This document shows positions 2,817 to 58,950 of a stretch of 64,000 nt of DNA, piece by piece. Both the position numbers and the translations under genes were made by a program. Where the stretch lies: assembly GCA_001897525.1 (NCBI GenBank), contig MKTB01000017.1:62001-126000 (forward strand), written 5' to 3'. The DNA comes from Bacteroidetes bacterium 43-16 (GTDB lineage: Bacteria; Bacteroidota; Bacteroidia; Chitinophagales; Chitinophagaceae). Within the stretch, counting starts at the first letter, position 1, and every line of letters starts with the position of its first letter. The notes under the pieces were generated by a model. It worked only from the letters and a program-made list of their open reading frames with translations, searched no databases and was not told the origin of the DNA.

Positions 2817-5800
2817 ATGTCGAAACAATTAAAACGCACACAATCGGGCCGTGTCAGCTTTGCTAAGATACACGATGCAGCTACTACGCCTGACTTGTTA
2901 GCCATTCAGCTTCAGTCTTTCCAGGATTTTTTCCAATTGGAAACAACTCCGGACAAGCGGGACAACGAAGGTCTCTTCCGCGTATTCAAAGAAAACTTCC
3001 CGATCACTGATACGAGAAATATCTTCGTATTGGAATTTCTGGATTATTTCATCGATCCGCCACGCTATTCGATTGAAGAGTGTATGGACCGTGGTCTGAC
3101 CTATTCCGTTCCTTTGAAAGCTAAATTGCGTTTGAGCTGTAATGATGAGGAGCACGTGGATTTTGAAACGATTGTTCAGGACGTATTCCTGGGTAATATC
3201 CCTTACATGACCCCACAAGGTACCTTTGTGATCAATGGTGCGGAGCGTGTAGTGGTATCCCAATTACACCGTTCTCCTGGTGTATTCTTCGGACAAAGTA
3301 CCCACCCTAATGGTACAAAAATCTACTCTGCCCGTGTGATTCCTTTTAAAGGAGCCTGGATGGAGTTTGCTACCGATATCAATAACGTAATGTATGCGTA
3401 CATCGATCGTAAGAAAAAGTTCCCTGTAACTACCTTATTACGTTCTATCGGTTTTGAAAACGATAAGGATATCCTGAACTTATTCGGGATGGCGGATGAA
3501 GTGAAAACAGATCGTAAATCTCTTTCTGAAAACATCGGCCGTCGCCTGGCAGAGCGCGTTTTACGCACCTGGACAGAAGATTTCGTAGATGAAGATACTG
3601 GTGAGGTTGTTTCTATCGAGCGTAATGAAGTTTTATTAGAGCGCGACAGCATTCTTGATGATCAGCACATCGACCTGATCCTTGAAATGGGCGTAGAATC
3701 TATCTATATCCAGAAAGAAGAATTAAGTGGTGACTATTCTATCATCTATAATACTTTAAATAAAGATACTTCTAACTCTGAGTTGGAAGCGGTACAGCAC
3801 ATCTACCGTCAGTTACGTGGTTCTGATGCCCCGGATGATGAAACGGCACGTGGTATCATCGAGAAATTATTCTTCTCTGATAAGCGTTACGATTTAGGTG
3901 AGGTGGGTCGTTATAAGATCAACCGTAAGCTGGAAATGGATCTGAGCAATACGAAAAAAGTATTGTCTAAAGATGACATTATCGCGATCATTAAATACCT
4001 GGTACGTTTATCCAACGGTAAAGCAGAGGTCGATGATATCGATCACCTGAGCAACCGTCGTGTACGTACAGTAGGTGAGCAATTATATGCTCAGTTCGGT
4101 GTAGGTCTGAGCCGTATGGCGCGTACCATCCGTGAGCGTATGAATGTACGTGACAACGAGGTATTCACCCCGATTGACCTGATCAATGCAAGAACTTTAT
4201 CTTCCGTGATCAATTCATTCTTCGGTACTTCCCAGTTGTCTCAATTCTTAGACCAAACCAATCCGTTGTCTGAAATTACGCACAAACGTCGTATTTCCGC
4301 GCTCGGACCAGGCGGTCTTTCCCGTGAAAGAGCAGGCTTCGAGGTACGTGACGTTCACTACTCTCACTATGGCCGTCTGTGTACCATTGAAACACCAGAG
4401 GGACCAAACATCGGTCTGATCTCCACTTTGTGTGTACACGCTAAGATCAACGATATGGGCTTCATCGAAACGCCTTATCGTAAAGTAAACAATGGTAAAG
4501 TTGATCTGAAAGATGAAATTTACCTGTCTGCTGAAGAAGAAGATGATAAACGTATCGCCCAGGCGAATGCGATCATTGATGAAAAAGGAAATTTCTTAGA
4601 AGATAAGATCAAATCCCGTGAAACCGGTGACTTCCCGATCCTCGAAAGAGAAGAAGTGGAATTCATGGACGTAGCACCGAACCAGATCGTAGGTTTGTCT
4701 GCATCTTTGATTCCGTTCCTGGAGAATGATGATGCCAACCGTGCCTTGATGGGCTCGAACATGCAACGTCAGGCTGTCCCTTTGATCCGTCCGCAGGCAC
4801 CTATCGTAGGTACCGGACTGGAAGCTAAAGCTGCCCGTGATGCCCGTACCCAGATTCATGCTGAAGGTACCGGTGTGGTAGAATATGTAGATGCTAATGA
4901 AATTCACGTTCGCTACGACAGAACCGACAAACAACGTCTGGTTTCTTTCGAAGATGATCTGAAAGTATATAAATTAATCAAGCACCGCAAAACGAACCAA
5001 AGTACCTCTATCAACCTGAAACCTGCTGTACGTAAAGGACAGAAAGTGGTGAACGGTGATTTCCTGACCGAAGGTTATGCAACACAACAAGGTGAGCTGG
5101 CATTAGGCCGTAACCTGAAAGTAGCCTTCATGCCTTGGAAAGGGTACAACTTCGAGGATGCGATCGTAATCAATGAAAAAGTAGTACGTGAAGACTTGTT
5201 CACTTCTATCCACGTGGATGAGTGGGAACTGGAAGTACGTACGACTAAATTAGGTGAAGAAGAATTAACGGCTGATATCCCGAATATCTCTGAAGATGCT
5301 ACTAAGGACCTGGATGAGCATGGTATCATTCGTATCGGTGCCCGCGTTAAAGAAGGTGATATCATGATTGGTAAGATCACGCCAAAAGGTGAATCTGATC
5401 CTACTCCTGAGGAAAAATTATTGCGTGCCATCTTTGGTGACAAAGCTGGTGATGCAAAAGATGCTTCATTGAAAGCACCACCATCAACTGACGGTGTGAT
5501 CATCGGCAAGCAATTGTTCCAAAGAGCTAAGAAAGATAAATCTCAGAAAGCAAGAGAAAAAACTGATCTGGAGAAAATCGAGAAAGTACACAGCGAGAAT
5601 TCTGAAGAGATCAAGAAATTATTGTTAGAGAAATTACAGGTATTACTGGCAGATAAAGCTTCTGCAGGTGTTACCAATACTTACGGAGAACCAGTAATCT
5701 CTAAAGGTGGTAAATTCTCTTCTAAAGTATTGAACTCTGTAGATTTCCAAAGTGTAAATCCTTTAGGATGGACTGCTGAAGAGGAAACAGATGATTTAGT

Positions 5801-12101: not shown

Positions 12102-12115
12102 ACAGATTTTTTCCT

Positions 12116-12159
12116 AAAACAATACAGGCGGTTCCCGATGGAGCCGCCTGTATTGTTTT
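12116..12159 (+). terminator. Long terminator hairpin after the secreted protein gene
   Basis: A 20-bp stem with a 4-base loop (12136-12139). The arms start AAAACAATACAGGCGG and pair fully apart from one G-T pair. A-run before and T-run after make it usable in both directions. Confidence 0.85.
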
Positions 12160-12281
12160 AAGCATCTGGTAAACACTTTATAGTAAATAACTACAGGAAC
12201 AACAGAAAAACAATTTAATATACACTGCTTTAATGAACATGAAGGAAAAATGGACTATTTTTATCTCCTTAGACTTCAGGT

Positions 12282-22793: not shown

Positions 22794-22810
22794 CAGAACA
22801 ATATTTCAAT

Positions 22811-22855
22811 AAATAAAGAAATCAGGTAATGCTTCATTACCTGATTTCTTTATTT
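22811..22855. terminator. Bidirectional terminator between convergent genes
   Basis: A perfect 21-bp stem (AAATAAAGAAATCAGG ... ) with loop CTT (22832-22834). It ends the gene at 22308-22793 and, from the other side, the gene at 22924-24201. Confidence 0.9.
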
Positions 22856-22923
22856 ATCCTTGTCCTCCGCCCCGTTTTAATTAAGGGCAAAAAATATACA
22901 GCCAGGGCTGTTCGTATAAGTAA

Positions 22924-27563: not shown

Positions 27564-27610
27564 TATACTTCAAAGAGCGACTGATAGGATATCAGTCGCT
27601 CTTTGAAGTA
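27564..27610. terminator. Long perfect hairpin
   Basis: Arms of 22 bp (start ATACTTCAAAGAGCGACTGA) with loop GGA (27586-27588). There is no T-run, so it is either an atypical terminator between convergent genes or another inverted repeat. Confidence 0.6.
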
Positions 27611-27682
27611 TGGTATAGGCAAGCTTTCTTTTCTTAATAAAAAGCTTCACCTCTGTTGTTATAGTGAATTTGATTACTTTTC

Positions 27683-29367: not shown

Positions 29368-29415
29368 TATATTCCGCCAAAAGTGCCTTCAGTACACCAC
29401 TTTTGGCGGAATATA
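29368..29415. repeat. Palindrome on the 3' side of the ATPase-nuclease gene
   Basis: Arms TATATTCCGCCAAAAGTG and its complement, 18 bp each, perfect, around a 12-base loop. Its core CGCCAAAAGT recurs in the palindrome at 30850-30893 on the other side of the gene. The rest of 29159-29479 holds no gene that I can see. Confidence 0.8.
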
Positions 29416-29479
29416 GTTATGACTCGAAAAGAGCATCAAGGGTAATGGCGTTTTGTATTAACTCTTTACTGTATTCATT

Positions 29480-30839
29480 TTACTTGATTCCGAAAGTAGT
29501 GATCAGCACTAAAAAAACATTTTTTCGTTTAGCAATATTAGCCTGTACCGCACTCCTTTTTATTTTCAATTTTTGATAATAATCTTTGGTAATGGTATAA
29601 TCTGTGTTAGAAAATTTCATTTCACAAAGGTTCATCACATTGTCGTCTCTGTCAATCAGCAGATCAATCTGAGCTTCATAGTTAAACCAACTGCTTTGTT
29701 GGGTATAAATCCCTCCTATGCCCAAAGCCTGTTTAATCTGCGGTGCATGTTTTAAACAAATCGTTTCAAAGCTAAAGCCGGACCAGGAGGCAAAGCTTGA
29801 GCTTTTATGTAATCTTTGCCAGGTGCCTGTACCGTTATTACGATTTTTCTTAATGAATTTGAGGTAAAATAAGGAGTATTCATCTGAAAGCCGGAACAGG
29901 CTTTGATTCCGTTTATTGCCATAATATTGATACTCGCTTACAAATCCGGACTCGATCAGTTCTTCCAGTTGTCTTGTAAATTCACCGCCACTCCTGGCTC
30001 CAGAATGTTTCAGCAGTTCTTGCCTGGTTATGCCTTTGTGGATCTTTGATAATGCTTTAATAATAGATACGTGCTTTTGCGCATCATCAAACAGGGAAGC
30101 ATAAAGTTGTCCAAATTCTGTACGCAGTAAGCCATCTTTCGAAAAACAAAGTTTGTCGATGTGTTGCGCCACACTTTTGCCTTTTTGAAGCTGATCTAAA
30201 TAGTGCGGCACACCTCCTGTGCACATATATAGTTGTGTGATGTCGTAATGGATATGGTTAATGCCCTTTATTTGCAGAAACGAAGCTGTTTCAGATAAAG
30301 TAAAAGGCATGAGCCGGATCTGCCGGGTGATCCTGTTGTGGAGGCCGCCTTTATTTTTTACTATTTTCAGGATCAGTATAAGAGGCTGCAGAGCCACAGA
30401 TCACAACGATCAGGTCTTTGCGCCGTGTGCAGTAGTTATTCCAAAAATGCTCAAATGCAGCCAGAAACATAGATTTCGCGGTTGCCATCCAGGCAAATTC
30501 ATCGAGGAAGATCACCTTCTTTTGCTTTTTAAGACTTGGCTTGTTCAGATAGTTTTCTAATCTTGAAAAAGCCGACATCCAGTCGCTTGCTGCTTCGGTA
30601 TGTTTGGAACGGCTTTTGTTTTGTAATGTAGTAGAAAACAAGCGGAGTTGTTCCTTTGTATTGGCCCTGTACAGTCCTGTGGTTTCAAATACAAGATGCT
30701 GGCTATAAAAAGAACGGATCAGGAAGGTCTTCCCGATCCTGCGCCTGCCATATATCGCGATCAACTCAGATTTGTTGCTGGTTAAGGCTTCTGTGAGTAG
30801 CTCTGTCTCTTCCTTTCTCCCGATATTATTTTGTATAAT
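29480..30839 (-). pseudogene. AAA ATPase with PD-(D/E)XK nuclease-like domain, frameshifted
   Basis: Together the two frames encode an archaeal-type ATPase (ATPase_2/DUF234 family). The 5' frame has NIGRKEETELLTEA, Walker A GRRRIGKTFLI, Walker B KVIFLDEFAWM and the sensor GSAAS. The 3' frame has the expected continuation KIVKNKGGLHNRI, a winged helix (GITRQELLKHSGARSGGEFT), and a nuclease-like core YEAQIDLLIDRDDN ... LCEMKF. An extra base near 30375 breaks the frame, and the upstream coding region has no ATG, only ATT or ATC codons after a stop at 30846-30848. So it is probably inactive, unless an unusual start and a sequencing error are both involved. Such genes are often multicopy in Bacteroidota. 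Confidence 0.75.
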
Positions 30840-30849
30840 GATTAATTAT

Positions 30850-30893
30850 ATATCGCCAAAAGTATATAAAATAGGTGACTTTTGGCGGCATAT
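30850..30893. repeat. Palindrome on the 5' side of the ATPase-nuclease gene
   Basis: CGCCAAAAGT (30854-30863) and ACTTTTGGCG (30878-30887) with AT-rich outer parts. Its outer arm read inward (TATATGCCGCCAAAAGT) matches the outer arm of the other palindrome (TATATTCCGCCAAAAGT) at 16 of 17 bases, so the gene is bracketed by inverted repeats. Confidence 0.75.
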
Positions 30894-31003
30894 AATTTTT
30901 TTTAATAAATTGCCAATTTGAATTATGTTTACACGTTCTCTGTTCCTCCTGTAGAACTATCCATAATTTTCGGATTCATTTTAGACTTAAAACGGGCTAA
31001 AGT

Positions 31004-58871: not shown

Positions 58872-58891
58872 TGCTGCTGCAATGAAGGTAT

Positions 58892-58933
58892 AATAAAAAA
58901 GCGATTGACCTGCAGGTCAATCGCTTTTTTATT
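58892..58933. terminator. Bidirectional terminator
   Basis: A perfect 19-bp palindrome arm (AATAAAAAAGCGATTGACC) with loop TGCA. It lies between two convergent genes. Confidence 0.9.
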
Positions 58934-58950
58934 ATTGATAATTTTATTGT

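Follow-up and report, generated by a model that had tools for sequence, protein, structure and literature searches.

The palindromes that accompany genes of PDC-S27, a widespread family of possible phage-defence proteins, are very probably read by the proteins that these genes encode, as suggested by amino acid residues that track the letters of the palindrome arms and by the correct prediction of arm letters at unseen loci. The letters differ between paralogs, following the residues of each protein, and appear to be largely predictable from a few amino acids in each. We consider it probable that the palindromes are cognate sites of the protein encoded between them, with autorepression as the likely use. 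A preliminary description of one such locus had raised the idea of a self-binding operator system, and this is strongly supported by the covariation of winged-helix residues with bases, by a prospective test and by promoter overlap, all of them read from sequence.

A decayed PDC-S27 copy between matching palindromes

PDC-S27 proteins consist, in this order, of a STAND-type ATPase, a winged helix and a PD-(D/E)XK nuclease. The gene found in the window, the whole analysed stretch of 64,000 nucleotides from Bacteroidetes bacterium 43-16, is a decayed PDC-S27 copy: it has no ATG at the homologous start, a frameshift puts its ATPase ORF and its winged helix–nuclease ORF in different frames, and an early stop makes it, with these other lesions, a relic (Table 1). 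The PADLOC PDC-S27 profile (PDLC04984) matches both frames (E 1.3e-52 and 4.5e-117), which cover positions 25-151 and 152-455 of the 474 in the model. Pfam gives 41.6 bits for ATPase_2 and 23.9 bits for DUF234, while NCBIfam has no match to the pieces of the gene, and a PDB sequence search with the C-terminal frame has none up to E 1; the searches with Pfam, NCBIfam and the complete PADLOC library covered only the pieces from the window. The fusion of an ATPase with a PD-(D/E)XK-like nuclease that had been proposed for the locus is thus borne out by the Pfam matches, but not for an intact gene, as the frames differ. Likewise, the many copies per genome expected of the family are found in relatives (about 22 in one), whereas in its own genome the window gene, one broken copy, is the only one of three matches above the Pfam ATPase_2 cut-off. 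Its nearest homologue in the tree (L099, genome G116) is identical to it at 280 of 470 positions.

Table 1. Positions of the features of the decayed gene and its palindromes in the window.
Feature	Positions	Strand	Remarks
Downstream palindrome	29368..29415	.	perfect 18-bp arms, 12-nt spacer; core letters the same as in the upstream palindrome
Former C-terminal tail behind the early stop	29417..29479	-	profile match to 29426; next in-frame stop codon 29417-29419
C-terminal frame after the frameshift	29480..30397	-	remainder of ATPase, winged helix, DUF234/PD-(D/E)XK nuclease; catalytic D, E and K kept
Winged-helix region	29882..30082	-	about residues 250-316 of L099; holds positions 280, 283, 286 and 308; coordinates derived by hand
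N-terminal frame, STAND-type ATPase	30351..30836 (ORF 30351-30764)	-	Walker A GRRRIGKT, Walker B FLDE; no ATG start
Upstream palindrome, putative operator	30844..30897	.	20-nt arms, 90%; directly before the former start codon; layout as in relatives

Protein homology continues beyond the early stop at 29480, to about 29426, so that the former stop codon almost adjoins the downstream palindrome; one base separates this palindrome from the next in-frame stop. A perfect palindrome with 18-bp arms after the gene, a related one before it and outer arms that form an inverted repeat at 16 of 17 bases had all been claimed from the outset, and direct reading bears them out with unchanged positions. In the frame of the family, each of the two is made of two 20-nt arms and a 12-nt spacer. 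The pattern CGCCAAAAGT-N5..25-ACTTTTGGCG occurs at only two places in the 4.7-Mb genome, namely the two window palindromes, and is absent from all 194 other genomes of the family searched, and its reversed-pattern control has no match in the same genome. The pair is not due to chance. As the window also contains further perfect inverted repeats with arms about as long or longer, what is unusual about the locus is the matching pair and not one long palindrome. Four of the other repeats, at 22809-22857 (arm 23), 27565-27611 (arm 22), 58890-58935 (arm 23) and 12115-12160 (arm 17), are possibly terminators.

Palindromes across the PDC-S27 family

PDC-S27 is known from guilt-by-embedding as an ATPase fused to PD-(D/E)XK, with 3503 archaeal and 4562 bacterial instances, and the passages of that account dealing with the family mention no operators, code or mechanism (PMC12988326); the window copy, for its part, is broken. 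The family has also been counted in rumen genomes, according to the section concerned (PMC13356809). Members at E <= 1e-60 are present in 55 of 298 genomes of the order, with at most five candidates scored per genome. At E <= 1e-40, a search of three genomes yielded 23, 17 and 12 matches, where a single G338 copy accounts for two. K36, D110 and E111 are invariant across 40 aligned rows. The structure model from 40 homologues (pLDDT 93.1) comprises ATPase, winged helix and nuclease, with a recognition helix at residues 282-293, and STAND (MNS-like) features are present, with Walker A/B and an AAA-like fold followed by the winged helix. Its best fold matches are PABY2304 (2qen, Z 19.7 with model residues 1-325) and SSO1545 (2fna, Z 19.0 with residues 1-324), the chains of which, at about 350 residues, align to ATPase and winged helix only; plant NLR, CED-4 and ORC chains come next.

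A search for palindromes beside other homologous genes, as the preliminary description had proposed, found a clear unit of 20-nt arms and an 11-12-nt spacer ahead of the start codon in 187 of 236 relatives. Upstream hairpins scoring at least 12 are found at 68 of 106 genes; the downstream side gives 11 of 107, and control stretches give 12 of 1774. Arm matches of at least 15 in a 19-mer are found upstream at 147 of 187 loci, compared with 28 of 182 on the downstream side and 48 of 2877 among controls. Spacer lengths of 0-23 were allowed, yet 132 of the 139 clear cases, and 37 of 37 new ones, have a spacer of 11 or 12. The arms share a skeleton of TTTATA, some free bases, GC, a CAAA-like stretch and T. 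It should be taken into account that the arm model was seeded with a hand-written consensus and so could favour the letters GCCAAA, against which the majority-base baselines used below guard only in part. With the arms of another locus swapped in, the upstream unit is still detected in 23 of 187 loci.

Homologues without flanks and palindromes without the gene had been named as observations that would speak against the arrangement, and both exist: the downstream palindrome is absent in 161 of 181 loci, and a clear upstream unit, under the criteria used, in 49 of 236 (12 of 49 among the new loci). A blind pattern search of 298 genomes with one core detected the palindrome on both strands at 18 loci; 13 of them adjoin the gene (in one case a gene fragment) and 5 do not. 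Counted by genome, the palindrome is present in 13 of 55 with the gene versus 2 of 243 without a match at E <= 1e-60, one of these two having a fragment; this tally assumes that both draws of 298 genomes are one set. At the five loci without the gene (G408, G369, G338 C3, G426 and G416 C34), it is absent from the flanks searched (about 4 kb, or 1.5 kb per side at G408 and G369), with a paralog about 3 kb away from G338 C3. Such palindromes may be what is left of lost genes, or sites on which other paralogs act in trans. Dispersal of the REPIN/RAYT type was considered and rejected, given two palindromes in the window's own genome and the 13 of 18 loci beside the gene.

Palindromes with the family skeleton, mostly as doublets, are found in gene-less DNA at L179, L180, L181, L151 and L160, and a tandem pair of PDC-S27 genes has a palindrome in between (L163, G383 C112). 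G245, which has no PDC-S27 match at E <= 1e-60, carries a dispersed palindrome of the kind GCCAAATTTTGC...GCAAAATTTGGC at five places on contigs C66, C105, C113 and C219, and this is a different repeat family.

Skeleton palindromes also accompany distant homologues in Emticicia (L344), on a Butyrivibrio plasmid (L346) and in an IMG/VR sequence (L271). A different tandem palindrome is seen in Wolbachia phage WO (L349), L263 and L264, and other inverted repeats in some further viral loci; the distant homologues L345, L347, L348 and L350 have no clear palindrome. In phage WO (MN180249.1), the PDC-S27-like gene at 1489-2952 adjoins phage head genes and is preceded by the tandem palindromic repeat of different layout. 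The Butyrivibrio fibrisolvens plasmid pNP243 belongs to Bacillota, and its skeleton palindrome, ahead of a 37%-identical homologue, indicates that the arrangement extends beyond Bacteroidota.

The position of the units points to the promoter. Among the 139 clear cases, the unit ends 0-14 bp from the start codon in 51 and 50-64 bp from it in 38, and two or more units lie within 400 bp at 92 of the 187 loci with a clear unit, at distances of 50-55 bp in 96 of 109 gaps. The box TAnnTTTG occurs 170 times upstream, compared with 20 times in one mononucleotide shuffle, and peaks 24-35 bp before the ATG (61 of 170 boxes), so that the proximal unit, where present, sits on the promoter region. A strict -7 box lies inside the loop in only 21 of 122 proximal units and 8 of 174 distal ones. 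The overlap of operator and promoter is in this way drawn from consensus evidence only. Strong inverted repeats near start and stop codons might alternatively function within the RNA, be it as terminators or as structures of the 5' UTR, but the arm bases follow residues of a DNA-reading protein (see below), the units are phased, the promoter box peaks at the proximal unit, an Rfam search of the window stretch gave no match, and mismatches in the arms, 183 of them G-U-compatible versus 152 of the opposite kind, have no significant bias (p 0.10). An action as RNA hairpins is therefore very unlikely.

Covariation of protein residues and arm letters

The letters of the arms were compared with all 470 protein columns, making 9400 residue–base pairs, in the 140 of 187 loci that passed filters for symmetry, spacer, score and ATG. 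The five best pairs all lie within the winged helix: residue 280 with base 12 (Z 26.5), 308 with 14 (Z 18.3), 283 with 9 (Z 17.0), 280 with 13 (Z 13.5) and 286 with 9 (Z 12.0). Outside it, Y56 with base 12 is sixth overall (Z 9.0), R172 with base 12 has Z 8.0, and residue 118, in the ATPase domain, pairs with base 5 at Z 8.7. The maximum in 200 full permutations was Z 8.3. Permuting within clusters (200 times) gave a mean of 10.9 and a maximum of 16.5 for 280/12, compared with the observed 26.5, and maxima of 3.1 versus 18.3 for 308/14, 5.4 versus 17.0 for 283/9 and 2.4 versus 8.7 for 118/5. Part of the signal is phylogenetic. Together, the reversed-pattern, hairpin, arm-match and permutation controls refute chance or convergent AT-rich sequence without function as the origin of the palindromes, and we give this virtually no probability.

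The resulting code reads as follows. At bases 12-13, S or T at position 280 goes with CA, N with T at base 12, D with GG and E with GA. At base 14, K308 goes with A and R308 with T or C. At base 9, R286 goes with G (67 of 68 arms), T283 with A (53 of 72) and D283 with C (7 of 8), and at base 5, H118 goes with T or C (70 of 72) and P118 with A (116 of 126). Out of 470 columns, 280 is the best for bases 12 and 13, 308 for base 14, 283 for bases 8 and 9 and 118 for base 5; the best columns for bases 6, 7, 10, 16 and 17 lie elsewhere (313, 25, 457, 381 and 275, respectively). The window arms fit the code at bases 12, 13, 14 and 5 and break the rule for R286 at base 9, with C instead of G, which may be explained by E283 acting like D283.

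The code was tested by leave-one-out prediction, with training only on proteins of <60% identity outside the winged helix. Base 12 was right in 254 of 280 arms, compared with 181 when copied from the nearest such protein and 168 with the majority base; for bases 12 and 14, the code reached 91%, and the nearest such protein 65% and 63%. In 69 disjoint sister pairs, Fisher's test was significant for 280/12 (p 1.4e-5), 308/14 (p 3e-7), 283/9 (p 3.6e-5) and 286/9 (p 0.0079), and not for 280/13 (p 0.27). Changes were also counted in independent pairs on a tree built without the winged-helix columns. The averages for the same direction, the opposite direction and no residue difference were 10.0, 0.0 and 1.0 for 308/14; 12.3, 0.0 and 3.7 for 286/9; 10.6, 0.1 and 4.4 for N280/T12; 8.9, 0.0 and 2.1 for D,E280/G12; 5.9, 0.0 and 4.1 for S,T280/C12; 10.8, 0.6 and 4.6 for T283/A9; and 14.6, 0.1 and 8.3 for 118/5, where A was grouped with H even though it mostly pairs with base A, which works against the signal.

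For the prospective test, 70 further loci yielded 67 with the gene, of which 18 were duplicates and 49 new, and 37 were used. The frozen code was right at base 12 in 61 of 70 arms (majority base 37), at base 9 in 32 of 34 (majority 21), at base 14 in 47 of 48 (majority 43) and at base 13 in 61 of 70 (majority 57, a small gain), with 4, 40, 26 and 4 of 74 arms receiving no prediction for bases 12, 9, 14 and 13, respectively. Compared with the training set, the unseen proteins have a median best identity of 52%; four of the 37 loci share at least 70% identity with a protein used in training, and eleven belong to a single genus. When this over-represented genus is removed, the figures are 39 of 48 versus 15 for base 12, 26 of 28 versus 17 for base 9, 41 of 42 versus 37 for base 14 and 39 of 48 versus 35 for base 13.

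Paralogs of the same genome differ in these letters. In the three genomes with 13, 12 and 9 palindrome-bearing paralogs (34 in total), the five-base signatures are all distinct within each genome, while random sets have 4.88 repeats on average; the P of 0.0036 is somewhat generous, as the random pool holds orthologues of different genomes and with them more chance collisions. Mean arm similarity within a genome is below that of random sets, though not significantly for any one genome (0.137, 0.197 and 0.100). The palindromes could in principle serve a separate regulator of the host as operators, or be markers for some other reader, and the five palindromes found without the gene would agree with this. 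However, paralog-specific letters that co-vary with residues of the same paralog, and the lack of any shared signature within each of the three genomes, make such a reader extremely unlikely.

Bracketed units and possible uses of the palindromes

A second unit with the same arms within 300 bp downstream, as in the window, is found in 20 of 181 loci, compared with 2 of 181 when the arms of another locus are used, and in 16 of these 20 its distance from the stop is at most 25 bp. This bracketed form is present in all six nearest tree relatives of the window gene and in 8 of the 10 nearest; over the tree, the trait requires 14 changes, while 200 shuffles required at least 17 and on average 20.0. 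The matching downstream palindrome is thus characteristic of a clade. Of the six nearest relatives, one is from a further genus of the family, one from a further genome of the order, one from Crocinitomicaceae, one from Ignavibacteriae and two from other Bacteroidota bins. In pairwise comparison of seven members, DNA homology reaches no further than just beyond the two palindromes, with the exception of a 31-bp flank match between L216 and two places in L184, and flanking ORFs are unrelated in 21 of 21 pairs; for two members, one of the flanks compared is short. That the units lie among unrelated neighbours indicates that the cassette spreads, and the G428 genome of the same genus, which has no unit between the same neighbours (the accC side and atpG), indicates that it is gained and lost.

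Direct duplications of host DNA on both sides, within about 500 bp, are seen in 7 of 220 loci (L184, L185, L290, L116, L194, L088 and L268), compared with any direct repeat in 3 of 146 same-side control block pairs; these seven are our own selection of non-palindromic cases from 24 direct-repeat rows, several of which are the palindromes themselves. In L184, the duplication is 260-270 bp long and 95% identical (2123-2391 and 4130-4389). Insertion with long target duplication has been proposed for restriction-modification genes, and the flank duplications are reminiscent of it; they offer a post hoc lead pointing to such insertion here.

These observations lend partial support to the possibility, also contained in the preliminary description, of a stand-alone selfish unit. 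It would be a cassette of about 1.5 kb that mobilises itself, with the palindromes as element ends recognised and cut by the ATPase–nuclease. The brackets inherited in the window clade, homology that stops at or near the palindromes among unrelated neighbours and the G428 site without a unit are in its favour, and the flank duplications, four of them at bracketed loci (L184, L185, L116 and L290), raised our estimate slightly. On the other hand, the downstream copy is confined to a small part of the loci, DNA identity of about 70% would in any case leave neutral flanks beyond recognition, and the flank duplications are post hoc, heterogeneous (gene ends, a tRNA-like piece) and not clearly above the control. 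A fresh transposition is not seen either: the highest identity between paralogs of a genome is 69% in the three genomes, which means no fresh copy, and the search for empty sites in relatives found no clean one, as the intergenic DNA of G428 is too diverged for a junction comparison and relatives of G116 have no clean empty site for the G116 unit. Ordinary horizontal transfer would give much the same picture. We consider self-mobilisation of the cassette fairly unlikely.

Autorepression, which we infer to be the likeliest use of the palindrome because the proximal unit lies on the promoter region, can be pictured as follows from the computed layout, covariation, unseen-site prediction and promoter position. 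One protomer would occupy each 20-nt arm, and two protomers would bind one palindrome. Residues 280, 283 and 286 of the recognition helix, together with 308 of the wing, would read the GC-containing core (bases 8-14), while a loop of the ATPase domain with residue 118 would probably read the AT-rich outer end at base 5. Adjacent units, about five helical turns apart, would seat more protomers on one DNA face; by simple arithmetic, the spacing of about 30 bp between arm cores and about 53 bp between units is near 3 and 5 helical turns, which suits such an arrangement. A unit covering the promoter would keep the potentially toxic ATPase–nuclease low, with expression restored once the protein is consumed or released, the latter perhaps by a phage-related signal. 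Residue and base would switch together in paralogs, and paralogs would thereby stay independent. In the window clade, the second palindrome of the same specificity after the gene may allow looping or mark the end of the cassette.

Autorepression does not account for the downstream copies or the gene-less palindromes. The palindrome may also be a docking and cutting site, making each paralog a self-addressed nuclease with a freely evolving code, although we regard this as distinctly unlikely. Two protomers on inverted arms would then hold their PD-(D/E)XK domains over the fixed 11-12-bp spacer, in an arrangement resembling a designed two-armed nuclease, and the nuclease would either stay inactive while docked on its own site, serving as an immune sensor, or mobilise its own palindrome-bounded cassette.

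Proposed self-recognition by PDC-S27 has partial parallels. In REPIN/RAYT systems, palindromes flank a gene and some palindrome doublets lie elsewhere; PDC-S27, however, lacks the tyrosine transposase, and its palindromes are few and mostly beside the gene. C proteins are a case of a self-regulated defence module in which the regulator is small and separate. Orc1/Cdc6 initiators combine AAA+ with a winged helix and are fold matches, as in PDC-S27, but are not known to carry a nuclease, and they bind origins rather than self-operators. Contact with DNA by both N- and C-terminal regions, as described for Cdc6/Orc1 in part of one source (PMC4599002), resembles the pattern of 118 plus 280-308 in PDC-S27. 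The same excerpts, on the NLR Rx1 (PMC4599002), and those on IniR (PMC5760070) give further STAND-fold ATPases that bind DNA; the predicted DNA-binding domain of IniR is a separate C-terminal domain, with no nuclease described in the sections concerned (PMC5760070). Another case of self-regulation, from the portion of the account dealing with a restriction-modification island, is RptR, a repressor that controls a nuclease-bearing defence locus via promoter repeats (PMC12255303). RptR is a small separate protein, whereas PDC-S27 would have reader and nuclease in one chain, with specificity diversified among paralogs. A literature search that covered few subscription papers and no bioRxiv preprints found neither palindromes nor a DNA code of PDC-S27 among the matches listed.

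PDC-S27 is an abundant candidate defence gene for which the relevant passages give no mechanism (PMC12988326). A cognate site with a readable code would provide a handle on what the protein binds, on the reading of bases by residues and on promoter control, and the code offers a route to how one genome can hold about 22 paralogs with differing sites. The family may represent a natural case of NLR-like ATPases that use the winged helix, and probably the ATPase domain too, for sequence-specific reading of DNA. With a cognate site at hand, the question of what triggers the nuclease would become directly testable.
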